Origin: Crocinitomicaceae bacterium
Lineage (GTDB): Bacteria > Bacteroidota > Bacteroidia > Flavobacteriales_D > Crocinitomicaceae
Length of the DNA stretch: 64,000 bases
Direction: 5' to 3'
Assembly: GCA_024643545.1 (NCBI GenBank)
Contig: JAHEMR010000034.1
Location: 62,001 to 126,000 of the forward strand
The notes under the pieces were generated by a model. It had not been told where the DNA came from. It made no database searches and saw nothing but the letters and a program-made list of their open reading frames with translations. A program made the translations under genes and the position numbers. Every line of letters starts with the position of its first letter. Position 1 is the first letter of the stretch. Shown piece after piece: positions 3,026 through 49,641 of this stretch.

Positions 3026-4768
3026 ATGAAAAACCTACTTGCTTTTCTTTTTACTTGTTCGATACTTTCATTTCACGCACAAATTTGCAACATCGACTTT
3101 GGCCAAACTTCTCCTGGAATTTACCCAGACACACTCCTTCCGGGAACTGTTGGACAGACCTATGGTTCAGACATTACTTTTGTCATGCCTACCGATACGA
3201 TGGGATATAATTTTACGAATTTTCACCTTTTATCAGTATCGCTTCCAGTCGGACTAACTTGGCAGTGTAACAACCTCGCAAACAATTGCGATTACAATCC
3301 ACAAATAAGTCAATATGGCTGTGTTCACATTAGTGGAACTCCCCTACTCGCTGGACAATACAACGTCGAAGTGACAGTAATTGCCGACCTCACAATTATC
3401 CAGGGATACCCAATTACCTTTCAACTATTAATGGAAGTCCTCCCAAGCACAACAAACGTTTCAAACAACGGTTTTGATATGACCGGCTCTTCCGGATGCG
3501 CACCAATCACAGTTGATTTCACCAATAATCATCCAGGGATGCTTTCCTACTATTGGAATTTTGGAAACGGCAACATTTCATTAAGTGAGAATCCAGTTCC
3601 GCAAGTATATACGATTCCAGGAGACTACCTGGTATATTACACCGCTTGGAATACTATTGACACAACAGATGTTTACACCTTGACGAATGTGAACATCAAC
3701 ACCATGAGCAATTATGGAAACTCTTTTCCTTCCTATGAAAATGCGGATGCCTATTTTAAATTATTTCAAAATGGCATTCAAATATATCAATCTAGTATTA
3801 TTGGTGATCAAAATCCACCTGTTCAATGGAACACCAGTATCAATCTAAATCCACAACAGACATATACCATTGAAATTTGGGAAGCCGATGAAAGTTTTGG
3901 AGAATCGTATTTTGGCACTGATGATTTCATGGGAAGTCATACCTTGAACTTTAATGGGTGTAACGGATGTGGAGCTGGAACAGCTAATTTCAACTACACG
4001 ATTAATCATCAAATCATTTACCCAAGTCCGACGATTGTTGCTCAGGACACCGTTCATGTATATGGATATCCACAAATGCCAACCATTTCTTTTGACCAAG
4101 CAAATCACACCTTGACAACACTGAATTTGGGCTGCGCAAATCAATGGTATTTTAATGGAAGTCCAATTTCTGGTGCTACAAATGCAAGTCATATCGTTTA
4201 TAACAGTGGGATTTATTCAGTTGTAGCAATAAATTCTTCTGGATGCGTGAGTTTCTCTGACACTTTAACGGCTGTTTATTGCAATCCGTTCATCTCACCG
4301 AGTATTGCCTTGAATTCTGCAAACGAATTGGTCCTATCAAATTACCCCGTAGCTTCAACCATTGAATGGATTTTAGACGGCGCAGTGCTTCCAAACCAAA
4401 ATAATGATACGATTACACCGCCAACGAATGGAACCTACAGTGTTCAAGTCACTGATGCATATGGATGTAGCTTCGGGACCAGTGATTTTCAACTTTCCGT
4501 TTCCATCGCGGAATTTGAAATTGGACAATGGATGATTTATCCAAATCCCACAAGGGATATCATTCACATTGACGTTGAAGAAAAAATGATTGGAGCAACA
4601 GTGGAACTTTTGGATTTAAGTGGGAGAATCATGACGACTTCAAAAATAAACCAGTCCACTAACCTATTTGAATTGGGTGATTTCCCAAGTGGAACCTACT
4701 TTATTTGCATCAATAATAACGGAATAAAACAAACGAAGAAGTTGATTATTGACGAATGTGCTCATTAA
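3026..4768 (+). CDS. T9SS type A secreted protein with PKD domain
   Basis: I chose the ATG at 3026 because it begins a typical signal peptide (MKNLLAFLFTCSILSFHAQ); the longer frame starts at a TTG at 2975 with no export features, and a near-consensus -7 element (TAATTTCG, 2998-3005) sits between the two. The 580-residue product has an N-terminal putative Ig fold near residues 20-140, a PKD-like domain near 160-225 (YYWNFGNG), and further Ig-like modules. The C-terminus is a type A sorting domain: YPNP near residue 505, then LLDLSGR and SGTYF. It should cross the outer membrane by T9SS. The function of the N-terminal part is unknown; the tail KKLIIDECAH is slightly longer than usual. Confidence 0.85.
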   Translation: MKNLLAFLFTCSILSFHAQICNIDFGQTSPGIYPDTLLPGTVGQTYGSDITFVMPTDTMGYNFTNFHLLSVSLPVGLTWQCNNLANNCDYNPQISQYGCVHISGTPLLAGQYNVEVTVIADLTIIQGYPITFQLLMEVLPSTTNVSNNGFDMTGSSGCAPITVDFTNNHPGMLSYYWNFGNGNISLSENPVPQVYTIPGDYLVYYTAWNTIDTTDVYTLTNVNINTMSNYGNSFPSYENADAYFKLFQNGIQIYQSSIIGDQNPPVQWNTSINLNPQQTYTIEIWEADESFGESYFGTDDFMGSHTLNFNGCNGCGAGTANFNYTINHQIIYPSPTIVAQDTVHVYGYPQMPTISFDQANHTLTTLNLGCANQWYFNGSPISGATNASHIVYNSGIYSVVAINSSGCVSFSDTLTAVYCNPFISPSIALNSANELVLSNYPVASTIEWILDGAVLPNQNNDTITPPTNGTYSVQVTDAYGCSFGTSDFQLSVSIAEFEIGQWMIYPNPTRDIIHIDVEEKMIGATVELLDLSGRIMTTSKINQSTNLFELGDFPSGTYFICINNNGIKQTKKLIIDECAH

Positions 4769-4851: not shown

Positions 4852-7800
4852 TTATTCTTCCGTTTCGACAATTAGTTTTTTCGTTCTAGCGCGAATTTTA
4901 TCTTGAATGCGATCGACCGTATAATACATCATCGGTACAACAATGATCGTCAAGAACATAGAACTTGTCAAGCCACCAATTAAAATCCATGCGAGTCCAT
5001 TTTTCCATTCGGCACCTGAACCAGTTGCTGTTGCAATTGGAATCATTCCCACTACCATGGCGATGGTTGTCATTAAAATTGGACGCATACGCTCTTTCAC
5101 CGATGATAACAAGGCTGTATAGGTTGACATTCCTGTTTCCTTCAAGTGATTGGTGAAATCCACAATCAAAATGGCATTCTTGGCGACGAGTCCCAGGAGC
5201 ATCAGCATTCCTAACATAGTAAAGATTCCCATGTTTGATGAACTCAAAGCCAATGCTAAAATTGCTCCGATTAGGGATACTAAAATGGAGAACAAGACCA
5301 CAAATGGGTACACGAAATTGTCATATAACGCAACCATGATAAGGTAAACGAGTATCAAACCAATGCCCATCGCGGTTCCTAGTGCTCCCATCGATTCTTT
5401 TTGACGTTTAATTTCACCACCCCAAGTCAAACGAACATTTTCATCTAGCGGATTTTTCTCTAAATACTTCTCGATTTCTTTAGAAACATTTCCTGCTGCT
5501 GTACCCAAAACCCAACAACGCAATGTCGTATTTGAAATTCGGTTTTTTCGTTCTAATGTTCCATTTCCATTTTCTACAGATACTTCTGCGAACTCTCCTA
5601 ATTGAACTTGCTTGCCATCTGAGGTATTAAAGGACATGTTTTTAATGTCATCCACGTTTTTTCGATCGAATGCATCTACCATCACACGGATATCGTATTC
5701 ATGCCCTTTCACATCGAATTGACTATCGTCATTTCCTGCTAATGCATTTTGAAGTTGCATCCCAACAACAGCAATTGGTAGTCCAAGTTGCCCCATCTTT
5801 TCTCGGTTCAATTCAATTCGAATCTCCGGCGTGATGTCATCAGTAGAAATCGCTGGGTCTTTTGCTCCTTTAATTGTAAGCAAATAGGATTTTAACCTCC
5901 TTGCCTCCTTGATTAAGAGTTCATTATCATCAGAAGAAAGAAATATTTCAATGGGTGCCTCTTCTGACTCAACCATTCCGATGTTCAAGGCTTTCACTTC
6001 TATTCCCGCATGCTGAGTTTTTATTTTCTTGCTGATTTCATCCATGTACTTCAACGTCGGATACTTTTTTTGCATCCCAGGCTTCATCTTCACGGTAATT
6101 TCAGAACGATTTTCAGAACCAAAAGACGTTGCTCCCATCCCTGAACTTGGTCCACCGACATTTGCGAATACCGTTTCTATGACGTCCTTTTGCGCCAATA
6201 AAAATTGCTCGATTTGCAATGTAATCGCATTGTTCTCTTCAAAGGTTGTACTCTTGTCGTATTTCAACTTGATCATAAACTTACCTTGATCTCCTTGTGC
6301 AACAAACTCCTGTCCAACTATTCCCAATCCCATTGTCGAAAAACTGGCAATAAACAATCCAATAATCACCCCTGCCATTATTAACTTATGGCGTAAGGAC
6401 CACCCAACTAACTTCACATATTGATCCGTAAAAATGGTCACGCGACGTTCAAACCAAAGTAAAAATGCTTGAAACGGTTTTTTCGGATTGAGCTCCACTT
6501 CTTTCGCAAAACGAGAAGCCAACCATGGCGTTAAGGTAAAGCAAACAAACAAGGACATCAATGTTGAAACTACTACTACGATGGAGAATTGGTGTAAAAT
6601 ATCAGAAATGGTCCCTTCAATAAATACGACCGGCGAAAATACCACGACATCCACCAAGGTAATCGCAAGCGCTGTGAATCCAATTTCATTTCGACCATCC
6701 AATGCCGCTTGACGACGTTTCTTGCCCATTTGTAAGTGACGGTAAATGTTCTCTAATACCACAATCGAGTCGTCTACAAGGATTCCGATAACAAGTGACA
6801 TGGCAAGCAAGGTCATCAAGTTCAAGGTATAGCCAAGTAGATACATCGCAACAAACGTTGAAATCAACGAAGCCGGAATCGAAACCAATACAATAACCGC
6901 ATTTCTCATGCTGTGTAAGAACAATAACATGACTGCAGCAACAAGAATAATCGCTAATTCAAGGTCATGAATAACCGCATCTACGGACTCCACTGTCGGA
7001 CGAGACGTATCTGTTGCAATGGTGAATTTCAAACCTTCTTTCTTGTATTTTTCTTCCAGGATTCCGAAACGTTCTTTCGTAGCTTTAGACATTTCAACGG
7101 CATTGGCGTCACTCTGTTTTTTTAATCGAAGTCCGATACCATTTACTCCATTCAATCGAGAAACAGCAATTTGATCATCGCTTGCATCCACGACTTCAGC
7201 AACATCTTTCAGTTTGACACTTGAAGTCCCCTTCGCATAGAGAATTAAATTTTCGATGTCCGAAATACTTTGGTATTTTCCCGCTAAACGAACCGTCATT
7301 TGTTCACCTTCACCTTTGACTTTACCGGTTGGAAACTCCACATTCGCGGAAGCAATAACTTGATTGATTGTTGTTAACGATAATCCGTACCGTTTCAATT
7401 TATCTTTATCGACATTAATGCGAAAAGCACGGCGTTCACCACCGATAACTTGCACCTCTGCTACTCCTTTTGTTTGTTTAATCTGTGGAAGGATTTGGTC
7501 ATCCATTAATTCCATCAAATCACGTTCGGACATATTCGACGCAACCGCACTCACTTGCAATACAGGCGATGCATTCGGTTCGATTTTCGCAATAACCGGT
7601 GTTTGAGCGCCTTCTGGTAAGTTGCTTAAAATATTGTTGATTTTCCGCTGTGCATCCTCAAGGGATTTATCAATATTCGCAGATGCTTTAAATTCCAGCA
7701 ACAAAAGTGATGCATTATCTAAAGAGAATGACGTGACCTCATTGATGTTTTCAATACCACTTAAGGCATCTTCCAATGGCTTCGAAACTTGCGTCTCTAC

Positions 7801-37422: not shown

Positions 37423-40400
37423 TAATTCACAATAACCCGGAACTTCATCACTCGGTTTTCATAATTCTTGATCTGTTTTAATGAAATTACATTTAAATTT
37501 ACATCTAAGTATCAAACTATTCTACCTTTTTCGCGCATGAAAAAAGTTTTGATTTATTGGATATTAATTTTTTGTCCAGCTCTTGTTTTTTCACAATCTT
37601 CTTCCATTATTGGAAGTCCGACAGTGAATGAATATCCTTATGGCGTATGTGCCGACAATGCTGGAAACGTGTATTTCGGCGCAACCAGCAACAATGATTC
37701 TTGGATTTTCAAACGTGACGTAAACAATGCGATTGTGTGGAGTAGGCAATTAAACACCGTTGCCTCTGGTTTTTCATCTGACGTTTCATACATTGATATT
37801 ATAGGAGATACCATATTTGGATGTGGGTGGTTGAAAACCGGCACTTCGATTGAAGGTAGTTTACTTTTCAAACTCAATGCCACTACAGGGGCAACCTATT
37901 GGGTCAAATCAGAATCTGTGAGCAACACTTATTTCTCAAGTGTGAAATATGCCAATGGAAAATACTTTGCTTCTGGTTCACAAATGAACAATGCAGCCGG
38001 GTATAATGGGAAAGTCATGGCCGTTTCGAGTGCAAATGGCAGCATTATATGGCAAACAAGCGCTATTGGAATAACATTCCCAGGATTTGGGATTGATTAC
38101 ATCGATGACTTTTGCTCATCAACAGAAATGGTCAATGGACAAATGTTTTTGACTGGACGTTCCTACGTTAATGCAACAACGACAAACATGCGTTCATTTC
38201 TGTTAGGGATAAATGACCTTGGAACCATCTTTTTACAAAAGTATCTAGAGTTTAATACCGCTACTTCTGGAGACAATCGATTTTATGGATTAAGCATTGA
38301 ATACGACGGTCCTGATTCACTTGTAGTGCTACAATATGGTGATGACAACTGTATCGGATGTACGGATTTTAAAGCAAGTTTGATAAAAACGGATTTAAAT
38401 GGAAATGTCTCCTGGTGCAAGGAATACGACTTAAGTGGTGTTTCAACAGAGGTCGGACGTGGCTTAAACATCACACCGAATAGCTACGTTTTCTATGGCT
38501 ACGCGAATCTTAACCAAAACAATTCCAAAATGTTCGCAGTCAAAACGAGCAAAACAGGTGTTTTTCAAACGGGAAAATTGATCAGTCTTGGGACGGGAAA
38601 TATGGGACACATAAGTGGTCCTGTCAATTGCGGGGGATCTAGTAATTATAAAAACGGTAAACATTACATTCCTGGTTCCTATTTCACGACAAATGCAAAC
38701 AGCCGTGACATTGCTCAAATCGTGTTGAACGACAATCTAGAGGACCCTCAAGGATGCTTGACAATTACGCCCGTAACCGCTACAACGAATATTTTCCCGC
38801 CATTCTCCAATGTATTGAATGTAAACTTGCCTTCAGATCTACTGAACTTAACCATTCAACCAACACCGATACAATACACATACATTTCTCCTTGTAATGC
38901 AACCGTTACCTTTTCTCAAAATTCCAATTGTGATTCCTCGGTAATAACTGCGTCTGTAACTACCGTAGCTAACCCAACATACACATGGTCAAACGGTGAT
39001 ATTGGAAATACGACAACCGCATACAATTCGGACACACTTTTCGTGTATGTTTCAAATCCAATTACGTGTTGTGTTGTAGTGGATACGATCATTCCAGTAC
39101 TCTCTTCTTCTGGAATTTTTGTTCATTTACCTAATGACACCACCATTTGTTTAGGGACAGGATCAGGTTTTACAATAACTCCGACAATTTCCCCAACAGC
39201 TACAGGAATCACTTACTTATGGAGTAATCAAGCAACCACTAATTCTATCAATGCGACTCAAACGGGAACATATTGGGTAAATGTCACGAATGGCTGTCAA
39301 ACGGTAACTGACACCATCAACCTAACGATAAATCCCAATCCAATTTTAACGAATGCTTTGACAGACACCATTTGCAATCAACAAAACACAAACATCAACT
39401 TGACTAGTAACATTCCAGCAACCTTTACTTGGCACGCCATCAATAATGGATCAATCTCTGGTGAAACAACCGCAAACACCAATTCAAATTCGATTCAAGA
39501 CATCCTCACAAACAATACGACGAGCAATCAAGTGGTCAGTTATGTCGTTACCACAACAGCCGGTGCTTGCAGCTCTACAGCAAACATCCAAATTACTGTC
39601 ATATCGCCATTAGCGGCACCGATTATTACCCCTTCAGGACCATTGACATTTTGCAATGGTGGTTCAGTTACCTTGAGTTCAAATTATCCAACTGGAAATA
39701 TTTGGAGTACTGGACAAACTTCTCAATCAATCACTGTGAATGCAACAAGCACCATTACATTGTCAATTTCGAGCAATGGTTGTTCATCGCCAACAGCGAG
39801 TATTTCCCTTACTCAACTTAATGCGAATCCTCCTTCTGCATCCATTTCAGGTGGCGGAACATATTGTCAAGGTCAAAACGTAACACCGGTAACCGTAAAT
39901 TTCACAGGAGCTGGACCTTGGACTTTGTCCTATCAAATTAATGGCGTAAATCAAACGCCAATTTCAACAGCAAACTCCTCTTTCACACTAGGTCAATCTG
40001 CAGGAAATTACCTACTTACTTCCGTTGTGGATTTGAATTGTACAAACGCGGTGAATGGAGCATCACTCATTGTCATTAATCCAATTCCGATTATTGATGT
40101 TAGTCCGATAACCATTTGTACTGGCTCAAGCGGCACCATTGCAAGCGTTGTGAATTTACCAGGAGGAACATACTTATGGAGTCCGAACGGAGAAACAACT
40201 TCTTCCATAAATGTCGCACCAACTAGTTCTAGTTCCTATTCGGTTGTTTACATTGTGAATAATTGTCCAAGTTTGGCTGATACGAGCTTAGTCAGTGTAA
40301 ATCCACTTCCGACCGTCTCATTCACAGCAGACACGTTGATTGGTTGTGCCCCGTTAACCGTGAATTTCACCGGGACTTCCAACGGAGATCCGAATGCCTG

Positions 40401-40560
40401 TTTGTGGACCCTAAGTAATGGACAAATATTAATTGGATGTAATCCAAGTTATACATTTAGTCAACCAGGATGCTATGATGTTGCATTAACGTCAACTTTA
40501 AACGGTTGTTCTGCAAGTGTGAATGCCAGTCAATACATTTGCATTGAAAACAATCCGATT
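33703..40560 (+). repeat. Tandem gene duplication with patchy near-identity
   Basis: Most of 33703-36440 repeats as 37576-40560. Long tracts are almost identical at DNA level, for example 33988-34044 against 37861-37917, and 35780-35880 against 39670-39770. Between them are stretches with many synonymous changes. The second copy has one added module of about 75 codons. Confidence 0.85.
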
Positions 40561-41091
40561 GCGCTATTTTCTGCCAATCCAAACATGATAAACCCGGACA
40601 ACTCAACGGTTCATTTTTTCAATCTTTCATCGGGTGCCACTTCTTACCTCTGGGACTTTGGTGATGCGGAACAGTCAGTCGAGGTTAGTCCATCTCATCA
40701 ATATGTTGTAAACGGTGGTGATTATTCGGTTACATTAACGGCTACCTCCCTACTCGGATGCACGTCGGAATATAGTTTAACCGTAATTTATGAAGAAGAT
40801 TTGACTTTCTACGTTCCGAATTCCTTTACACCAGATGGAGATCAATTCAATCAGGTTTTTTTACCGATATTCTCATCTGGAATTGATGAATCCAGTTACC
40901 ACTTAAGTATCTTCGATCGTTGGGGAGAAATCATCTTTGAATCCTATGATTTACACGTTGGTTGGGATGGAACATACAAGGTTAATCAAGGCTTGGTTCA
41001 AGATGGGATTTATGTTTGGAAAATCGATTTCAAGTTAAAGAAAAACGATGATCACCGATCCGTTACTGGACATGTGTCCATTTTGAAATAG
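37537..41091 (+). CDS. Giant T9SS type B surface protein, paralog B
   Basis: I use the ATG at 37537, which begins the signal peptide (MKKVLIYWILIFCPALVFSQ); the longer frame adds 23 residues with no export feature. The 1184-residue product matches paralog A closely through the propeller and first Ig modules. It then has one extra Ig-like module (VSPITICTGSSG to LVSVNPLPT), shares the PKD-like module with A, and ends with a different PKD module (SYLWDFGDAEQS) and a different type B tail (VPNSFTPDGDQFN, FDRWGE, GWDGTY). The upstream DNA of both genes shares TAAnTTTACATCT-like sequence, so the promoter was probably duplicated too. Confidence 0.88.
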   Translation: MKKVLIYWILIFCPALVFSQSSSIIGSPTVNEYPYGVCADNAGNVYFGATSNNDSWIFKRDVNNAIVWSRQLNTVASGFSSDVSYIDIIGDTIFGCGWLKTGTSIEGSLLFKLNATTGATYWVKSESVSNTYFSSVKYANGKYFASGSQMNNAAGYNGKVMAVSSANGSIIWQTSAIGITFPGFGIDYIDDFCSSTEMVNGQMFLTGRSYVNATTTNMRSFLLGINDLGTIFLQKYLEFNTATSGDNRFYGLSIEYDGPDSLVVLQYGDDNCIGCTDFKASLIKTDLNGNVSWCKEYDLSGVSTEVGRGLNITPNSYVFYGYANLNQNNSKMFAVKTSKTGVFQTGKLISLGTGNMGHISGPVNCGGSSNYKNGKHYIPGSYFTTNANSRDIAQIVLNDNLEDPQGCLTITPVTATTNIFPPFSNVLNVNLPSDLLNLTIQPTPIQYTYISPCNATVTFSQNSNCDSSVITASVTTVANPTYTWSNGDIGNTTTAYNSDTLFVYVSNPITCCVVVDTIIPVLSSSGIFVHLPNDTTICLGTGSGFTITPTISPTATGITYLWSNQATTNSINATQTGTYWVNVTNGCQTVTDTINLTINPNPILTNALTDTICNQQNTNINLTSNIPATFTWHAINNGSISGETTANTNSNSIQDILTNNTTSNQVVSYVVTTTAGACSSTANIQITVISPLAAPIITPSGPLTFCNGGSVTLSSNYPTGNIWSTGQTSQSITVNATSTITLSISSNGCSSPTASISLTQLNANPPSASISGGGTYCQGQNVTPVTVNFTGAGPWTLSYQINGVNQTPISTANSSFTLGQSAGNYLLTSVVDLNCTNAVNGASLIVINPIPIIDVSPITICTGSSGTIASVVNLPGGTYLWSPNGETTSSINVAPTSSSSYSVVYIVNNCPSLADTSLVSVNPLPTVSFTADTLIGCAPLTVNFTGTSNGDPNACLWTLSNGQILIGCNPSYTFSQPGCYDVALTSTLNGCSASVNASQYICIENNPIALFSANPNMINPDNSTVHFFNLSSGATSYLWDFGDAEQSVEVSPSHQYVVNGGDYSVTLTATSLLGCTSEYSLTVIYEEDLTFYVPNSFTPDGDQFNQVFLPIFSSGIDESSYHLSIFDRWGEIIFESYDLHVGWDGTYKVNQGLVQDGIYVWKIDFKLKKNDDHRSVTGHVSILK

Positions 41092-42164: not shown

Positions 42165-44012
42165 TTATTTAATAACGGTTACAAATCCTTGGTACAATTC
42201 TTTGACGGTGTTACCAGGATTGAAATACAACATATACGTATACACGCCATCTAAAACAGGGATTCCTGTTCGCTCGTCTTTACCATCCCACTTCAATTGT
42301 GTCGGTGAAAAGGTACAAACTACGTTGCCCCAACGATTGAAAATCCATCCACGTTCGACTTTTCCGTTTTGTATGATGATTTCAAAGGTGTCGTTGACCA
42401 TATCGCCATTCGGCGTGAATACGTTTGGAATGTATATAACAGAGGGTTCAATGATGCACGTTTCCATGTGCACATTCACCGTATGTAGATAGTCACACCC
42501 ATTTGCATTTTGCTCTATTTGTGTCAAAGTCTGCGCACTAAAAACCCACTGATTGAAAACAAGAACGGAGTCGAACTCGCACAAGGTGACATTTTCAGTT
42601 AATGGTGAAATTGAATAAAAACTCAAGTTTGCAATGTGCGTACTATCACATTGATTGATGTCCTGAAAAGCTGCAGAATATTGTCCCGGCACGTTCTCCC
42701 AATTTCCATTAATCAATGCTGAATCACCCGGACAAATCGTAATGGATTCTGTCGTTGTTTGAGGCGTGCATCCATTCATTACTACGATGGAAACACATTG
42801 TGTATCTGCACACGCACCTGACCCGAGTTGATAACATACTTGCCACGTTCCTACTCCTGCTGTTTGTGGATTAAATACTCCCGATGGGGATAAACATGTA
42901 CCGCAAGTCGAAGTCCAAACTCCTCCCCCATTCACTGCTTGAATTTGTTGCACAGCATCTTGATTCGTAAACGGTCCTGCTGGAGAAATGGCCGCATTGG
43001 CTCCTTGTGTTCCTGCAGTCACAGTAAATGTTTCAATCACGGAACATCCGTTGGCTCCTGTAACTGTAACGGTATAGTTTCCCGGACAAACATTCGCAAG
43101 TGTACTTGTCGTTGCTCCGTTTGACCAACTATAGGTGTAAGGAGCAAGTCCGTTCGTTACGGAAGTCTGAATGGATCCATCGCATACATTGAGACACGTT
43201 TCATTAGCAATTACAGAAGTAACTGTCATGCCTGGATTCACACTACAAAGTGGATTCATGCTTCCAATCCATGCATCATTTGCCGCATTATTCGCCATTC
43301 CGGGTGTTTGTCCAGTGGCAACGTCAGCACTTGTCCAGTTTGTAACTAAATTCCAATCGTTGGATGTTGTATTCGTGAAGGAAAATACTTTTCCAGCTGC
43401 GGAGCCAGCAAAGTATACAATGGCATTATTCGTATTATTTCCCCAACTCACACTGTGAAAAGGAACTCCGGTGGATGGAATATTCGGAACTTGAAATGAA
43501 TCATCCGTATTTGACATGGCCAACGGTGACCAAGATCCACCAACTGACCAATTGGCATCTGGCGGATATGCTTGATTCGTAGTGGTTGGACTCAACGTTG
43601 TTTTTTCCAACAGCATAGAGTTAGCTGGAATCACCAAACGGCAATTTCCATCAGCCATTGTGTTGTCATCCGGTGGTAAACTTGCATTTGGACTTGCATC
43701 ATTGTAAATCACAATGTATGTTCCTTGTGGAATACTTTGCCAAAATGGTATGTTCGCAAAACGAACAGCTCCTCCTGCAATACCTGTTCCCGAACCTGCT
43801 GCGAAATATCCATTGTTGTCATCAATAATGACTTTGCGTAAGTCCAAACTTGGAACTGGAGTAACACAGGTTGGTGTACCAATCACCACAAATTCCACAT
43901 ATTCACTTGAACCCGTTCCTTGAGAAACTTCATTAATTATTAATTGTTGTGCTTCAAATCCTTGAAACAAAAACAACAACACACTCAGAATTAATACTTT
44001 ATTCATTGTCAA
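42165..44012 (-). CDS. T9SS type B protein with lamin-tail domain
   Basis: The 615-residue protein has a signal peptide (two possible ATGs, 44012 and 44006), then a lamin-tail-like domain beginning QQLIINEVSQGTGSSEYVEF, an SprB-type repeat near residues 255-330 (VCDGSIQTSVTNG, YTYSWSNGATTS), further modules and a gliding-motility-type C-terminal domain (IPNVFTPNGDMVNDTF, NRWGNVV, WDGKDER). It should be surface-attached T9SS cargo. Lamin-tail domains in bacteria occur in secreted proteins, some tied to nucleases or adhesion; no nuclease motif is seen here. Confidence 0.88.
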   Translation of the reverse strand: MTMNKVLILSVLLFLFQGFEAQQLIINEVSQGTGSSEYVEFVVIGTPTCVTPVPSLDLRKVIIDDNNGYFAAGSGTGIAGGAVRFANIPFWQSIPQGTYIVIYNDASPNASLPPDDNTMADGNCRLVIPANSMLLEKTTLSPTTTNQAYPPDANWSVGGSWSPLAMSNTDDSFQVPNIPSTGVPFHSVSWGNNTNNAIVYFAGSAAGKVFSFTNTTSNDWNLVTNWTSADVATGQTPGMANNAANDAWIGSMNPLCSVNPGMTVTSVIANETCLNVCDGSIQTSVTNGLAPYTYSWSNGATTSTLANVCPGNYTVTVTGANGCSVIETFTVTAGTQGANAAISPAGPFTNQDAVQQIQAVNGGGVWTSTCGTCLSPSGVFNPQTAGVGTWQVCYQLGSGACADTQCVSIVVMNGCTPQTTTESITICPGDSALINGNWENVPGQYSAAFQDINQCDSTHIANLSFYSISPLTENVTLCEFDSVLVFNQWVFSAQTLTQIEQNANGCDYLHTVNVHMETCIIEPSVIYIPNVFTPNGDMVNDTFEIIIQNGKVERGWIFNRWGNVVCTFSPTQLKWDGKDERTGIPVLDGVYTYMLYFNPGNTVKELYQGFVTVIK

Positions 44013-44227: not shown

Positions 44228-45715
44228 ATGAAAAAACTGGTGCTTTTACTATTTATTGGCCTGTGCTACAAGGCATCGTTGGCGCAAAAAGCCAAGGAAT
44301 CTGATTCACTTCAATGGTTTTCTGACGCCAAATTAGGAATCTTTATCCACTGGGGAATTTACGCGGTGGATGGTACATCTGAAAGTTGGGCTTTTCACAA
44401 TAAAGGTGTTCCGTATCCATCGTATATGTCACAGTTACTTGGATTCAAAGCGGAGAACTATCACCCGGAAGAATGGGCGGAATTAATCAAGGAAAGTGGC
44501 GCTCAATATACGGTTATGACGACCCAACACCACGATGGCGTAGCATTGTGGGACACAAAATTAAAAACACCGAGAACAACCGAGTCTGAATTAAAAGAAG
44601 CACTTCCCTCCCTTTCAATGAAATACAGCAAAGATTTTTTGTGGAATGAAAAATTACCTTTAAGTGTCGTGCATCAAACTCCTGCTAAACAAGACTTAAT
44701 GCAGCCATTTGTTGAAGCGGTCCGCAAAGAAGGTCTTAAATTTGGAGCGTATTATTCGTTGTTGGACTGGTCTCACGATGATTACCCAACTTTCCTGAAA
44801 GACTACAACCGTTATCAAATCAAAAATGACAGCGTTCGTTGGAATCGTTTTCTATCCTTCATGCATGGACAAATCCTTGAAATCAATCAGCAATTTAAAC
44901 CCGATTTATATTGGTTTGATGGTGACTGGGAACATTCGGAATCGGAATGGCAGGCAGCAAAAATCGACCAAATCATTCATACGAGTAATCCGAATGCGAT
45001 CTTGAACGGAAGGTTAAAGTCCTACGGAGACTATGATACTCCAGAGCAGAATATGCCGATTGTTCATCCTGACAGAAACACCTGGGAACTTTGTTTGACA
45101 AGCAATGACAATTGGGGCTATCGCCCGAAGGACCACAACATGAAAACAGTGAATGAAGTCCTGCAAATATTCACCGAATGCATTGGCATGGGCGGAAATT
45201 TATTGTTGGACATCGGTCCAAAAGCAGACGGAACCATTCCAACAGAACAAGTAAACTTATTGAAAGCGTTGGGACGTTGGACCTCCAAACACAAAGATGC
45301 CATTTATGGCACCATTGCTGGACTTCCCGCTGGACATTTTCACGGCAACTCTTCCCTTTCCAAGGACTCAATGTCCATTTACCTCTTTCTACCTTCAATC
45401 GGCGTTGACACAACAAATCAAGCAACAAAAGAATTGAAGTATGGAACAATGACGACAACAGCGCCAGTCTCCAGTTCTAATCTCAAAGTAAATGTTCAAC
45501 TGAAAGGATTATTTTCCGACATTGAAAGCATCACCATTCTCGGAACGAAAACGAACGTTCCCTATAAAATTGTCGGTAAAATTGATTGGAGCTTTGTACC
45601 TGGAACAATTTATATGGACGTGCCCATTTCTTCATTGGATCCAGAGATTTCTGTCATCAAAATAAAACTAAAAACACCCTTGAAACTCTATCGAGGAAAA
45701 GGTGGTTTTCATTAA
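44228..45715 (+). CDS. Alpha-L-fucosidase (GH29), first copy
   Basis: The 495-residue protein has a signal peptide (to ASLAQ) and the GH29 opening DAKLGIFIHWGIYAV, then TTQHHDGVALWD and the nucleophile motif LYWFDGDW with Asp231. GH29 enzymes remove alpha-linked L-fucose with retention of configuration. The C-terminal beta domain after about residue 370 is normal for the family. No T9SS tail is seen, so it is probably periplasmic. The general acid cannot be assigned by eye. A DUF4838 protein and a second GH29 enzyme follow on the same strand. Confidence 0.93.
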   Translation: MKKLVLLLFIGLCYKASLAQKAKESDSLQWFSDAKLGIFIHWGIYAVDGTSESWAFHNKGVPYPSYMSQLLGFKAENYHPEEWAELIKESGAQYTVMTTQHHDGVALWDTKLKTPRTTESELKEALPSLSMKYSKDFLWNEKLPLSVVHQTPAKQDLMQPFVEAVRKEGLKFGAYYSLLDWSHDDYPTFLKDYNRYQIKNDSVRWNRFLSFMHGQILEINQQFKPDLYWFDGDWEHSESEWQAAKIDQIIHTSNPNAILNGRLKSYGDYDTPEQNMPIVHPDRNTWELCLTSNDNWGYRPKDHNMKTVNEVLQIFTECIGMGGNLLLDIGPKADGTIPTEQVNLLKALGRWTSKHKDAIYGTIAGLPAGHFHGNSSLSKDSMSIYLFLPSIGVDTTNQATKELKYGTMTTTAPVSSSNLKVNVQLKGLFSDIESITILGTKTNVPYKIVGKIDWSFVPGTIYMDVPISSLDPEISVIKIKLKTPLKLYRGKGGFH

Positions 45716-45813
45716 ACGGAAGTAATGGAAATCACAACGAAAACTTACGATATTCTAATTTATGACGTTTTAAATTTTCAAACGCTTAAAACTTCATTAT
45801 AATTCAGATCATC

Positions 45814-48234
45814 ATGCCAAAAAACAAAAAAATCAATGTGGAAGGAAAGGAAATTACGGTAATTTCCGAAAAGGAAAATGAATTCATATCTCTAACGGAA
45901 ATGTTAAAGGCAAAAGATGGTGATTTTTTTATTGCAGACTGGTTAAGAAATAGAAATACCATTGAATACCTTGGAGTTTGGGAGACCGTATATAATCCAG
46001 ATTTTAATTATGGCGAATATGCCATAATTAAATCTTATACAAAAATACTGGTCTTGTTTGCGTTTCTTTTCCAGTCATTCAGTTCATTCTCTCAAGAAGT
46101 TTACTACCCCTCTTTAAATACCACGCTTGAATTTTACCTTCGGGAAATCACAGGTTTTGAAACGGACTTCAAGTTTCATTTCGAGCTTCCCAACGACCAA
46201 ATTTTCAAGCGAACAAAAGAATGGGGCTCGGACGGATTCGGGGTAATAGCAGATCGAAAAAACCTTGTTTTTTACGGCGCAACCGAACAAGCCATTGAAC
46301 ACGCCATTTACTACACACTTGAGCATTCGTTCGGTATTCGCTTTTATAGTGCCGAAGAAACGTTTATTCCAAAATTGGAACGCATCAAACCCTTACCATT
46401 TACAGTATATGAACAAGTCCCAGCATTCGAATACCGTGAGGTTTTCTACGGTGAAGCGCGACGTGCGGGCTACGCAGAATCCTTCTTTTTAACGGATGAA
46501 CAAGGAACAGGAAGCTTTGAAAGACATCCAGGCTGGGGACTTTGGGTGCATACTTTACACCGATTATTACCACCTGAAACCTATTTTGAGAAACATCCGG
46601 AATACTATGCTTTACGCAATGGCATTCGAATGAAGGACCAACTTTGCTTGAGTAATCCAGAAGTACTTTCTCATGTGAGCAACGCACTTCAACTAGAAGT
46701 AAACAAACATCCCAATGAAAAATATTGGAGTGTCAGTCAAATGGACAATTACAACTTTTGCGAATGCGAAAAGTGTGCTCACATCGACGAAGAAGAAGGG
46801 TCACATTCCGGTTCCATCATTCGTTTTGTCAATGAAATAGCGAAACTCTTTCCGGATAAAGTCATTTCCACCTTAGCCTATCAATATTCCCGCACAGCAC
46901 CAAAAGTGACTAAACCACTTCCAAACGTGAACATCATGCTTTGTACGATTGAGGAAAATAGAGCGAAATCACTAACCGGTACCGGATTTGAAAAAGACCT
47001 ATCCGATTGGGCGAAAATCAGTCAGAATATCCTCATTTGGGATTATGTCATCAACTTCTCTCACATGGTCATGCCATTCCCCAATTGGCCAACACTGCAA
47101 GAAAACATCCAACTTTTTAAGAAATATGGCGTCAACATGCTCTTTGAACAAGGATACAATAATTCTTCTTCTGAAATGCAAGAATTGCGCTGCTTCCTTA
47201 TTTCCAAATGGATGTGGGATCCGTACATAGACGCGAACACGTTGATGGATAACTTTTTATCGAACTACTACGGTGCTGCCGGACCCATCGTTAAAGAAAT
47301 CCTTAATCAAGAAGTAAGTGAATTGCAAAAAAGTGGGAAAGCACTTACCTTGTATGAACCTCCAATGACGCACATTAAGGGATATTTGTCTCCTGAAAAC
47401 CTTCATTGGTACCATAACATGTTTCAAAAAGCGAAAAATCTGGAAGGACTTACAGAAAAACAATTGGAACGACTTGACATGGCGCAACAAAGCATGCGCT
47501 ATGCATCCCTGGAAATTTCAAAATCGCCAGATGCCGGCAAAGACTGGTATTTCTATTCTACGGACAATCCATACGATCAAATGCTTACCGACTTTGTTCG
47601 ACTAGCACTTAAAAATGGACCGAAACTTTTACACGAAATCAAATTGAGTCCAAAGGAATATGAGCAGATCACGCGTGATTATTGGAAAAACGGAAAGGTG
47701 AAGCACTTGGCTTCGAATGGAACTTTGAAATACCTCAACATTCCAAATAGTGCCTACCAAGATGGCGCAAAGAAAACCGACGGAAGTTCTATTGATTCCC
47801 TGACTTTCATGAGTGGACAACCCTTGATAAATGGCATTAAAGGGACCACAGACTATCAATACAATTGGCAGGGATGGCAAGGACGAAATGCGGAACTCAT
47901 CATTGACCTTGGAAAAGTAGATTCTATTTCGAACATTCGCCTGAACTTTTTAGAAAACAACTCCGCTTGGATTGTTGGTCCGAAAAGTTTGAACGTACGA
48001 ATTGCAACGAATTTGACCGATCTTGATGCATCAAATTCCTTTCAAGCATCGATTGAAAATCCAGATGCAGGAAAACAACTTCCTGCGGGGACGTATCCAC
48101 TGCAATTAACGCTTCCAAGTAAAACCGCAGGACGCTTTATACATATTCAGGTCATTAATCCGGGAGCATTGCCTAAATGGCGCGGTGTCGATGGAAATGG
48201 TTGGTTATTTATCGATGAAATTGAAATTCACTAA
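45814..48234 (+). CDS. DUF4838-type glycan enzyme fused to a KilA-N fragment
   Basis: The frame runs for 806 codons as a chimera. Residues 1-73 are the start of a KilA-N domain (KEITVISEKENEFISLTEML, FIADWLRNRNTIEYLGVWET, NPDFNYGEYAIIKS), a phage-type DNA-binding module normally 100 or more residues long. From about residue 75 the sequence becomes a signal peptide (KILVLFAFLFQSFSSFSQ) and then a DUF4838 protein with a GH67-like N-domain (GATEQAIEHAIYYTLEHSFG), a catalytic-type barrel and a discoidin-like end (WQGRNAELIIDLGKVDS). No ATG lies at the signal peptide, so its own start was lost at the join near 46030. The stop abuts the next fucosidase ATG (TAAATG). Confidence 0.85.
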   Translation: MPKNKKINVEGKEITVISEKENEFISLTEMLKAKDGDFFIADWLRNRNTIEYLGVWETVYNPDFNYGEYAIIKSYTKILVLFAFLFQSFSSFSQEVYYPSLNTTLEFYLREITGFETDFKFHFELPNDQIFKRTKEWGSDGFGVIADRKNLVFYGATEQAIEHAIYYTLEHSFGIRFYSAEETFIPKLERIKPLPFTVYEQVPAFEYREVFYGEARRAGYAESFFLTDEQGTGSFERHPGWGLWVHTLHRLLPPETYFEKHPEYYALRNGIRMKDQLCLSNPEVLSHVSNALQLEVNKHPNEKYWSVSQMDNYNFCECEKCAHIDEEEGSHSGSIIRFVNEIAKLFPDKVISTLAYQYSRTAPKVTKPLPNVNIMLCTIEENRAKSLTGTGFEKDLSDWAKISQNILIWDYVINFSHMVMPFPNWPTLQENIQLFKKYGVNMLFEQGYNNSSSEMQELRCFLISKWMWDPYIDANTLMDNFLSNYYGAAGPIVKEILNQEVSELQKSGKALTLYEPPMTHIKGYLSPENLHWYHNMFQKAKNLEGLTEKQLERLDMAQQSMRYASLEISKSPDAGKDWYFYSTDNPYDQMLTDFVRLALKNGPKLLHEIKLSPKEYEQITRDYWKNGKVKHLASNGTLKYLNIPNSAYQDGAKKTDGSSIDSLTFMSGQPLINGIKGTTDYQYNWQGWQGRNAELIIDLGKVDSISNIRLNFLENNSAWIVGPKSLNVRIATNLTDLDASNSFQASIENPDAGKQLPAGTYPLQLTLPSKTAGRFIHIQVINPGALPKWRGVDGNGWLFIDEIEIH

Positions 48235-49641
48235 ATGAAAACATACGTTACACTTATTCTTTCTAGTTTACTTTGGATGAACGTCCAAGCACAAGAACAC
48301 GAACAGCATTACTTCCCTCCTTCTGATCCGCTCGTTCAAGCGAAACTAGAAACGTGGCAGGACTTCAAATTTGGACTATTAATGCACTGGGGAACCTATT
48401 CCCAATTGGGCGTCGTGGAATCTTGGAGCATTTGTCCGGAGGATGAAGATTGGTGCATCCGACGTGGACCCTACAAAAACGATTATTTCGGTTACGTGAA
48501 AAACTATGAAAACCTACAAACGACTTTTAATCCTGTTCAATTCCAACCGGAAAAATGGGCGAAAGCAGCGAAGGATGCAGGAATGAAATACATGGTTTTT
48601 ACAACCAAACACCACGATGGATTCTGTATGTTTGACTCACAATTTACAGAATACACCGTCGCAAATGAAAAATGTCCATATTCCACAAATCCGAATGCAA
48701 ATATTGCCTTAAAAGTATTCGATGCCTTTCGCAAGGAAGGACTTTGGATTGGCGCGTATTTCAGCAAACCGGATTGGAGCAGCGACGACTATTGGGATCC
48801 GACTTTTCCTCCCTACGACCGAAATCCAAATTATGACCTAACCAAGAAACCTAAAAAATGGGCTGGGTTTGTGCAATTCACCCACAATCAAATCTTGGAA
48901 TTGATGAAAGATTATGGTAAAATCGATTTACTTTGGCTCGATGGTGGTTGGGTGCAACCAATGACCGCAACTTCGCCTCGCTGGGGATACAAACCTGTGA
49001 ATCAAGACATCAAAATGGATTCTTTGGTTGCGGAGGCACGAAAATTACAACCGGGATTAATCGTGGTGGATCGAGCTGTGGAAGGTGCAAATCAAAATTA
49101 CTTAACTCCGGAGCAACAAATTCCTGCGAAACCCCTTCCCTATCCGTGGGAATCTTGCATGACAATGGCGAACAGTTGGAGTTACGTACCGAATGATCAG
49201 TACAAATCCACCGCGAAAATTTTGGAAAATCTTTGTTTGATCGTTTCACGCGGTGGGAATTACTTGCTCAACATCGCGCCAAATGCGCAAGGTGAATGGG
49301 ATCCCATTGCTTATCAACGTCTCGCTGAAATTGGCAATTGGATGAACGAAAATGGTACAGCGATTTACGGAACGCATCCGGTTGCACCTTATGAAGTAAA
49401 AACCGAACAAGGAACATGGGTCTTCACGGAGAACAACCAATTGGAACTCTTTGCGATTTTTATTCCTGTTGATTTCGAAGTAATGTTTGTGGAACTTCCA
49501 GTCAATCAATTAAACTTAAGTGGTAAAAAGAACGTCACAGCACTTGGTTCATCTGCACATTATAAATTGAAAAAGTCCTCAGCGAACGTACTTTCATACG
49601 ACCACAAAGGACTTCCTCAAGTTTGGAAAATATCCAAGTAA
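48235..49641 (+). CDS. Alpha-L-fucosidase (GH29), second copy
   Basis: The 468-residue protein has a signal peptide ending MNVQAQ and the GH29 motifs DFKFGLLMHWGTYSQ, TTKHHDGFCMFD and LLWLDGGW, with Asp236 as probable nucleophile. It diverges strongly from the first copy and has an insertion with several acidic residues after the opening motif (CPEDEDWCIRRGPY), so it likely differs in linkage preference. It starts immediately after the stop of the DUF4838 gene, which argues for one transcript for these two genes. It ends 6 bases from the convergent RND permease gene with no obvious terminator between. Confidence 0.93.
   Translation: MKTYVTLILSSLLWMNVQAQEHEQHYFPPSDPLVQAKLETWQDFKFGLLMHWGTYSQLGVVESWSICPEDEDWCIRRGPYKNDYFGYVKNYENLQTTFNPVQFQPEKWAKAAKDAGMKYMVFTTKHHDGFCMFDSQFTEYTVANEKCPYSTNPNANIALKVFDAFRKEGLWIGAYFSKPDWSSDDYWDPTFPPYDRNPNYDLTKKPKKWAGFVQFTHNQILELMKDYGKIDLLWLDGGWVQPMTATSPRWGYKPVNQDIKMDSLVAEARKLQPGLIVVDRAVEGANQNYLTPEQQIPAKPLPYPWESCMTMANSWSYVPNDQYKSTAKILENLCLIVSRGGNYLLNIAPNAQGEWDPIAYQRLAEIGNWMNENGTAIYGTHPVAPYEVKTEQGTWVFTENNQLELFAIFIPVDFEVMFVELPVNQLNLSGKKNVTALGSSAHYKLKKSSANVLSYDHKGLPQVWKISK

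Follow-up and report, generated by a model that had tools for sequence, protein, structure and literature searches.

A KilA-N fragment joined at a KilA-N palindrome to a secreted DUF4838 enzyme, and a possible aba-like role of the palindrome

The window analyzed here is a stretch of 64,000 nucleotides (nt) from a Crocinitomicaceae bacterium (assembly GCA_024643545.1, contig JAHEMR010000034.1, positions 62,001 to 126,000 of the forward strand). It contains an open reading frame (ORF) of 806 amino acids (45814-48234, forward strand) that starts as a KilA-N protein, continues with a signal peptide and ends as a DUF4838 enzyme. The join is at the edge of a palindrome (46003-46032), and this palindrome belongs to the KilA-N family itself. 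We propose tentatively, with chances that we put slightly below even, that a KilA-N family found across phyla encodes a cognate palindrome that varies from gene to gene, that phages collect copies of it, sometimes paired, as immunity tags, and that recombination via the palindrome made the chimera. The comparison is with aba, a DNA element in the BstA locus that silences BstA, which is a defence protein of prophages and has an N-terminal domain similar to KilA-N (excerpts of Owen et al. 2021, PMC8585504).

The fused frame and its counterparts in related genomes

The palindrome is a near-perfect inverted repeat; the four outer bases of its central GAATAT are unpaired. Its 24-nt core (46006-46029) occurs once in the genome when up to three mismatches are allowed. 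DNA similarity between the window genome (G000) and the KilA-N genes of three relatives (G047, G129 and G182) ends at 46032. The KilA-N part thus has exactly the 73 codons given in the initial annotation. To the left, similarity begins at about the ATG for G047 and includes the leader for G129. The fragment matches the Pfam KilA-N domain (PF04383) with 37.1 bits (cut-off 23.8, E 3e-9) over profile positions 5-62 of 107; the domain in the window is incomplete, a remnant that ends at position 62. Residues 1-74 match the PADLOC family PDC-S22 with 84 bits, over profile positions 1-77 of 281 only. The full DUF4838 profile (PF16126, positions 1-325) is matched by residues 177-498 with 339.8 bits. 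Residues 74-94 read as a signal peptide, by eye rather than by a predictor. The fragment is single-copy in the 2.75-Mb, ~93% complete assembly. Its G+C content is 31.1%, compared to 27.8% for the leader and 41.3% for the enzyme. The features of the locus are as follows.

44228..45715, forward strand: upstream GH29-type alpha-L-fucosidase gene, left anchor of the syntenic site (Pfam Alpha_L_fucos, 263.6 bits)
45746..45813, forward strand: 5' leader of the KilA-N module, left edge approximate (identity to G129 and G383)
45814..46032, forward strand: KilA-N 5' fragment, codons 1-73 (Pfam, PDC-S22, nucleotide identity to G383)
46003..46032, strand not applicable: palindrome TTTAATTATGGC-GAATAT-GCCATAATTAAA, codons 64-73; its right edge is the join, and it is found at the counterpart position in other KilA-N genes
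46033..46095, forward strand: signal-peptide codons of the enzyme, SYTKILVLFAFLFQSFSSFSQ, own start codon absent (comparison with ATG-bearing orthologs)
46096..48234, forward strand: remainder of the secreted DUF4838 enzyme (DUF4838 domain at about 46342-47307)
48235..49641, forward strand: downstream alpha-L-fucosidase gene, right anchor (Pfam, 307.9 bits), adjoining the ORF stop

The relatives are the 86 genomes of the genus, G000 included. Seventeen of them, again counting G000, code for the DUF4838 enzyme at E 1e-60, and 13 of these loci were read (all except those of G016, G392, G022 and G011). The end of the upstream fucosidase is found 5' of the enzyme at all 13. Six loci (G273, G008, G028, G342, G035 and G013) have neither KilA-N nor palindrome; in G273, the nearest KilA-N-free relative, only 9 nt separate the fucosidase stop from the enzyme ATG. 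In G383, an intact KilA-N gene of 272 codons occupies the site, and the enzyme retains its own ATG. In G129, KilA-N is shortened to a 99-codon frame from the ATG, and the enzyme also has its own ATG. All that is left of KilA-N in four further genomes (G002, G284, G015 and G393) is about 30 bp, some ten codons (NYGE..A..K), at the 5' end of the enzyme and in its frame. These 30 bp are the palindrome; possible ATG or GTG starts lie upstream of its codons. Of the 13 loci read, only that of G000 has the fusion. The spacing from the last palindrome codon to the end of the signal peptide is 22 codons in all five joined alleles (hand count), which we take as the mark of one ancestral joining event.

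These comparisons confirm the observation made in the initial annotation and support part of its interpretation; the palindrome at the join had escaped it. The in-frame join leaves 806 codons open, and the frame ends flush with the fucosidase gene, whose ATG (48235) directly follows the ORF stop. The start codon of the enzyme was indeed lost, as G273, G129 and G383 have an ATG just 5' of the signal peptide. The rare codons proposed as alternative starts are in place (TTG at 46054, ATA at 46024, ATT at 46027). The suggested former insertion of phage-type DNA holds as far as the foreign insertion is concerned, given the intact KilA-N gene at this site in G383. The term "phage-type" was revised, because the family is a candidate phage-defence gene in phages, phage satellites and bacterial chromosomes. 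The same fusion in orthologs, which had been named beforehand as refuting the initial interpretation, was found in none of the 12 other orthologs read. An assembly error is unlikely and was rejected, because relatives back both junctions: the right one is common to four other species, and on the left the sequence runs on without a break as in G129 at this locus.

The KilA-N part and the enzyme differ in divergence. Between G000 and G383, the KilA-N codons are 92.7% identical, with a synonymous divergence (dS) of 0.37, computed from 41 synonymous sites, a nonsynonymous divergence (dN) of 0.023 and a dN/dS of 0.06. Synonymous sites of the enzyme are saturated in the same pair. In the leader, 82 of the 88 nt preceding the ATG are identical both between G000 and G129 and between G000 and G383. 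The last 240 nt of the fucosidase gene are 80% identical to G129 and 84% to G383. The first 30 nt past its stop have 24 (G129) and 23 (G383) identities, and the next 270 nt have 248 (92%) and 252 (93%), with a range of 24-30 in the nine 30-nt blocks. The rise in identity thus begins about 30 nt past the fucosidase stop, as a step that is visible, though not sharp. These sequence comparisons suggest that the KilA-N module is far younger than the split between the species. It probably arrived horizontally and moved between species after the split, because a dS of 0.37 contrasts with a saturated enzyme. The junction between palindrome and signal peptide is another matter: because four orthologs hold the palindrome in frame without any other part of KilA-N, we infer that this junction, and with it the loss of the start, is old and predates the present KilA-N fragment.

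The following history would account for these alleles. A mobile KilA-N gene with its leader may have inserted between the fucosidase gene and the DUF4838 enzyme gene. A deletion in one allele would then have removed the enzyme ATG and joined the signal peptide of the enzyme to the right edge of the palindrome, an internal part of the KilA-N coding sequence. Four relatives would retain the palindrome alone, in frame. In the G000 lineage, a younger KilA-N 5' part with leader would now stand to the left of the resident palindrome, the simplest route being homologous recombination of a KilA-N gene with that palindrome. The product would be a chimera of 73 KilA-N codons, signal peptide and enzyme, with the frame still open.

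Alternatively, the KilA-N 5' part may have been in the lineage since the joined allele arose and may have been lost separately in G002 and in the group of G284, G015 and G393. Vertical descent of the common right junction would indeed account for all five joined alleles. However, this requires two independent losses that end at the palindrome edge, and divergence from G383 and G129 is far lower in the KilA-N part and leader than in the enzyme. We consider it unlikely. Much less probable still, and hardly to be expected, is that the fusion is a selected architecture in which KilA-N serves a glycan enzyme as its N-terminal domain. An open, intact frame and the low dN/dS of the fragment against G383 would fit selection, but this dN/dS value may date from the time as a working KilA-N gene. 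Also, KilA-N is cut at profile position 62, ahead of the later helices and the beta-hairpin, and an evolved KilA-N-enzyme architecture was rejected upon its absence from all 12 other orthologs read.

With the enzyme's own start gone, either the whole chimera is made from the ATG at 45814, in which case the buried signal peptide would be an anchor, or a rare codon near 46027 is used as the start. To judge by the four relatives that have the palindrome only, extending the N-terminus through the palindrome seems to be tolerated. Compared to the structure model of a relative (see below), the KilA-N part is without the later helices and the beta-hairpin, and DNA binding by it is unlikely. The product that we expect is a secreted enzyme, either working or weakened, and not one that has gained a new function.

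A second, isolated palindrome copy was observed elsewhere in two genomes of the genus. Palindromes are found at 7130 and 8378 in L049 (G016:C12) and at 4555 and 5189 in L050 (G011:C57), with the isolated copy ahead of a gene starting with MINWHTST, which we take to be ABM-like. In G016, this copy comes with a graft of KilA-N sequence, while G011 has the palindrome alone, which matches what is seen at the window locus. Upstream of the fucosidase cluster, the window also codes for two large secreted-looking proteins (37468-41091 and 42165-44012), presumably with a gliding-type C-terminal sorting region.

The palindrome in the KilA-N family

The palindrome was analyzed in 80 viral KilA-N loci, which had been found by other protein motifs, and in 16 loci found with the window fragment (L032-L047). 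The 24 nt were read at the profile column of N in the motif N..EF..I; seven alignment rows without this column were dropped. The 49 distinct 24-mers have a mean of 10.7 complementary pairs out of 12, compared to 7.0 in a codon-usage null (codons redrawn per gene) and to 3.2 at other codon offsets. At least 11 pairs are formed in 33 of the 49, and 16 are perfect with differing arms (hand count). Codon choice is restricted in the core: the core Glu is encoded by GAA in 58 of 58 cases (803 of 1134 elsewhere) and the core Phe by TTC in 56 of 61 (217 of 632 elsewhere). The mismatches in the arms are G.T in eight cases, A.C in 11 and others in 21. This pattern, although the numbers are small, points to DNA over RNA; an RNA hairpin is not supported, since G.T pairs do not outnumber A.C.

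A scan of bacterial and archaeal genomes with one arm type gave at least 117 stretches from many phyla. Among 118 sites in the listed bacterial and archaeal matches and 23 viral sites, 69 are in a full KilA-N frame, 44 in a partial one and 28 outside any; some of the partial genes are merely truncated where the stretch ends. A relative was modelled with AlphaFold2 (predicted local distance difference test, pLDDT, 90; predicted template modelling score, pTM, 0.55), and most of the palindrome-encoded residues are in the helix 63-72 of this model. In the open PubMed Central (PMC) literature, preprints not included, the papers that mention KilA-N together with palindromes are unrelated by their titles, none mentions it together with an inverted repeat, and the palindrome sequence itself has no match.

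Some loci have an unusual arrangement. A contig labelled Candidatus Altarchaeum, an archaeon (L176), has a KilA-N gene with a AATTATGGC palindrome. Three tandem KilA-N genes with different palindromes (L038, L045 and L047) are found at G003:C6:2524-4441. At G369:C59:10314-10788 and G300:C43:6453-6927, there are two copies of the KilA-N N-terminus about 35 nt apart, one of them short-framed or with stop codons. These pairs possibly originate from a partial duplication at the palindrome.

Palindrome copies in phages and satellites

Many viral copies are isolated. Sites outside a recognisable KilA-N frame make up 18 of 23 for AATTATGGC arms, 62 of 82 for AAACTGGTC and 16 of 25 for AATTCCCTC. The five AATTATGGC sites counted as KilA-N include two weak fragments, L189 and L202. 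For the AATTATGGC type, the first type scanned, three controls with shuffled arms matched 1, 0 and 0 contigs. Among annotated phages, 32-nt queries matched 29 records for AAACTGGTC and 44 for AACCGTGTC (KilA-N genes and partial matches included). More than 80% of the query is covered in 27 of the 29 and in 23 of the 44, while one shuffled query gave 0. The three viral arm types occur in 17, 22 and 16 distinct contexts (55 altogether), six of which are inside ORFs of at least 100 amino acids. A GAATTC core is present in 24 of the 55 and at least half of it in 49, compared to 13 and 22 of 133 other palindromes, which are from the viral loci scanned, with KilA-N genes not removed. Of 60 contexts, which include a few bacterial ones, 12 have another palindrome with perfect arms no more than 200 nt away, as opposed to 11 of 1007 random places. 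Among these 12, the palindromes of L198, L205, L208 and L209 do not resemble the KilA-N type on visual inspection, and two sites each were counted for L112 and L371.

It could be that the palindrome is a mutational product without function, in which template switching perfects a quasi-palindrome laid down by the N/K..EF..I/F codons. The residues of the frame alone do yield a partial palindrome, as seen from the null mean of 7.0, and arms that vary between genes while symmetry is maintained are as expected. Such a process does not predict isolated copies with the same arms outside KilA-N, the frequent GAATTC core, or the excess of second palindromes nearby, and we regard it as improbable.

Streptococci illustrate both kinds of location. 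In the streptococcal satellite phages Javan559, Javan581 and Javan279, the KilA-N gene lies between the genes for a repressor and an integrase; in Javan625 and in Staphylococcus phage EW, its neighbours have no product names. A perfect AAACTGGTC palindrome is in the KilA-N gene of the Streptococcus suis satellites Javan559 and Javan581 and of the Streptococcus uberis satellite Javan625, and one with a single arm mismatch is in that of Javan279. The Mannheimia locus, one of six KilA-N phage loci examined, yielded no palindrome site. Phages phiSS12, phiLP081102 and phiZJ20091101-4 of S. suis have the AAACTGGTC palindrome outside KilA-N, at the start of a gene for a capsid and scaffold protein (according to the annotation of relatives); the start annotated for a hypothetical protein in phiSS12 overlaps with it. 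The host match between satellites and phages comes from a small host sample. Five related phages were compared at the place of the scaffold gene. Nearby, other palindromes are found in phiS10 (12 of 14 pairs) and in Javan573 (10 of 12), similar to the ones that phage EW and L282 have in their KilA-N genes; symmetry is weaker in Javan1 and phiARI0468b-3 and poor in Javan576. A phage attachment site was considered and rejected, the palindrome being in the head-gene region of the S. suis phages.

Additional locations were noted. KilA-N palindromes are matched at the dUTPase gene in staphylococcal phages (hits H37, H39, H45, H63-H70 and H72-H77); the match in phage DW2 falls on a feature with the label putative SaPIbov1 derepressor. 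In a Helicobacter prophage (L293:6001-6032, BK070131.1), a near-perfect palindrome follows 76 nt after a coding sequence annotated as KilA-N domain, and none was seen inside that coding sequence. A metagenome-assembled genome from Bacilli (L112, around 3832-4245) has a cluster of palindromes with two related arm types, AATTATGGC and AAATATGGC, and no recognised KilA-N gene around it.

The most serious alternative, though still rather unlikely in our view, is an operator: the KilA-N protein may bind the palindrome to regulate its own gene and, in phages, the neighbours. At L371:5272-5348, two identical cognate palindromes are located just 5' of the KilA-N gene. Several isolated sites are intergenic, some of them just 5' of a ribosome-binding site (read by eye), and the PHROG 2657 label is transcriptional regulator. 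Second copies of a gene's own palindrome near that gene are somewhat commoner (5 of 141) than with swapped palindromes (24 of 2155). They are still rare, and an autoregulatory operator was therefore rejected as a general rule, with a second own copy in only these five genes. Also, most of the contigs with isolated sites in which a KilA-N gene was sought have none. One was found in two of 16 contigs in one set (which includes L189 and L202 with their weak fragments, the contig of L189 being one of the two matches) and in one of 40 in another (15 of them with the discounted fourth arm type, see below); many of these contigs are fragments.

Comparison with BstA/aba and other systems

The full-length KilA-N proteins of the family match PDC-S22 from PADLOC-DB end to end (377 bits for L050; 424 bits for G383, profile positions 1-272 of 281). 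PDC-S22 is a prediction-only name for a candidate defence family. In excerpts of PMC12813430, it is named in co-occurrence statistics, and neither a mechanism nor a palindrome is mentioned there. A PADLOC scan of L050 at E 0.01 listed PDC-S22 alone; the presence of a BstA model in that library is unconfirmed. The assignment to KilA-N (PF04383) is based on a match over the curated cut-off, and the model of the relative has helices and a beta-hairpin. No PDB chain matches the profile of the family at E 1. Foldseek with the model returned weak DdrC matches only (best E 1.5e-3), thus no strong structural relative.

The similarity to BstA/aba consists of a KilA-N-type protein, a defence protein in BstA and a candidate one here, and of a short DNA element that overlaps its gene; aba is cognate to each homolog, and the palindrome arms vary from gene to gene. 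In excerpts of PMC8585504, each BstA homolog tested has its own aba, and there is evidence that aba acts as DNA. The mechanism is still called unknown or unresolved in excerpts of publications from 2024 (PMC11087260, PMC10884400). By analogy, we infer that the palindrome is an aba-like cognate DNA element and that the isolated copies are immunity tags. This role fits because the palindrome is within the gene, points to the DNA level by its mismatch pattern, differs between homologs and is found alone in viruses that would gain from immunity. A palindrome on a replicating phage or satellite genome would make the KilA-N defence protein spare that genome, and viruses without KilA-N would carry copies in order to escape.

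Homing-type selfish genes, as a further comparison, share some traits with the module: a free-standing gene comes and goes at one intergenic site, and the join is at a short shared sequence (compare excerpts of PMC8263062). They differ in that the Pfam scan found no nuclease domain and in that the supposed target is inside the gene and not interrupted by it.

Several points weigh against our proposal. The palindrome is not aba proper. According to excerpts of PMC8585504, aba has 63 bp, spans the start codon and contains CCCGCC direct repeats, whereas the window element is a palindrome at codons 64-73. The sequences differ, and published aba contains no palindrome (6 of 9 arm pairs at best). 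A single chromosomal aba copy gives no immunity (excerpts of Owen et al., PMC8585504), so that chromosomal palindromes need another reason to persist. The arm type of the window itself, as a 32-nt query, was found in 1 of 50,697 phage records and in no plasmid. The scarcity of KilA-N in contigs with isolated sites fits escape tags, not self-immunity. In the tree of the enzyme gene, G129 and G383, which kept the ATG, are nested among the species with joined alleles (support 61-92). This requires allele exchange or repeated insertion, and the tree cannot fully order the insertions, deletions and exchanges at the site. Finally, a fourth arm type, AAAGTGGTC, has at least 120 viral sites, and only three of the 120 listed are in KilA-N frames. 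A T-run, as in terminators, is present in 35 of its 54 distinct contexts, and the GAATTC core occurs in two. Second palindromes nearby are not above random (1 of 53, compared to 13 of 454). This arm type, chosen as a further test, is confounded by terminators and was not counted as support; in the viral contigs L412-L531, AAAGTGGTC...GACCACTTT was seen as a common intergenic terminator-like hairpin.

The chromosomal leftovers (e.g. in G002 and G015) are unexplained by immunity. We read them as scars that are kept as coding sequence, since they now encode the start of the signal peptide. A chromosomal palindrome would thus be a leftover and at the same time a recombination hot spot. Taken together, the history of insertion, deletion and recombination at this site and an aba-like function of the palindrome form a joint reading that we consider likely.

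For the window, this reading would make an apparent chimeric enzyme the scar of a recombination, of which sister species show intermediate forms. If the palindrome is aba-like, the self/non-self rule known from BstA in Gram-negative bacteria would extend to a far wider KilA-N family, with a site so short that it can be spotted by eye. One could then score viral genomes for the KilA-N defences that they escape. The way in which a DNA element silences a KilA-N defence protein would become testable with an oligonucleotide of 24-32 bp.

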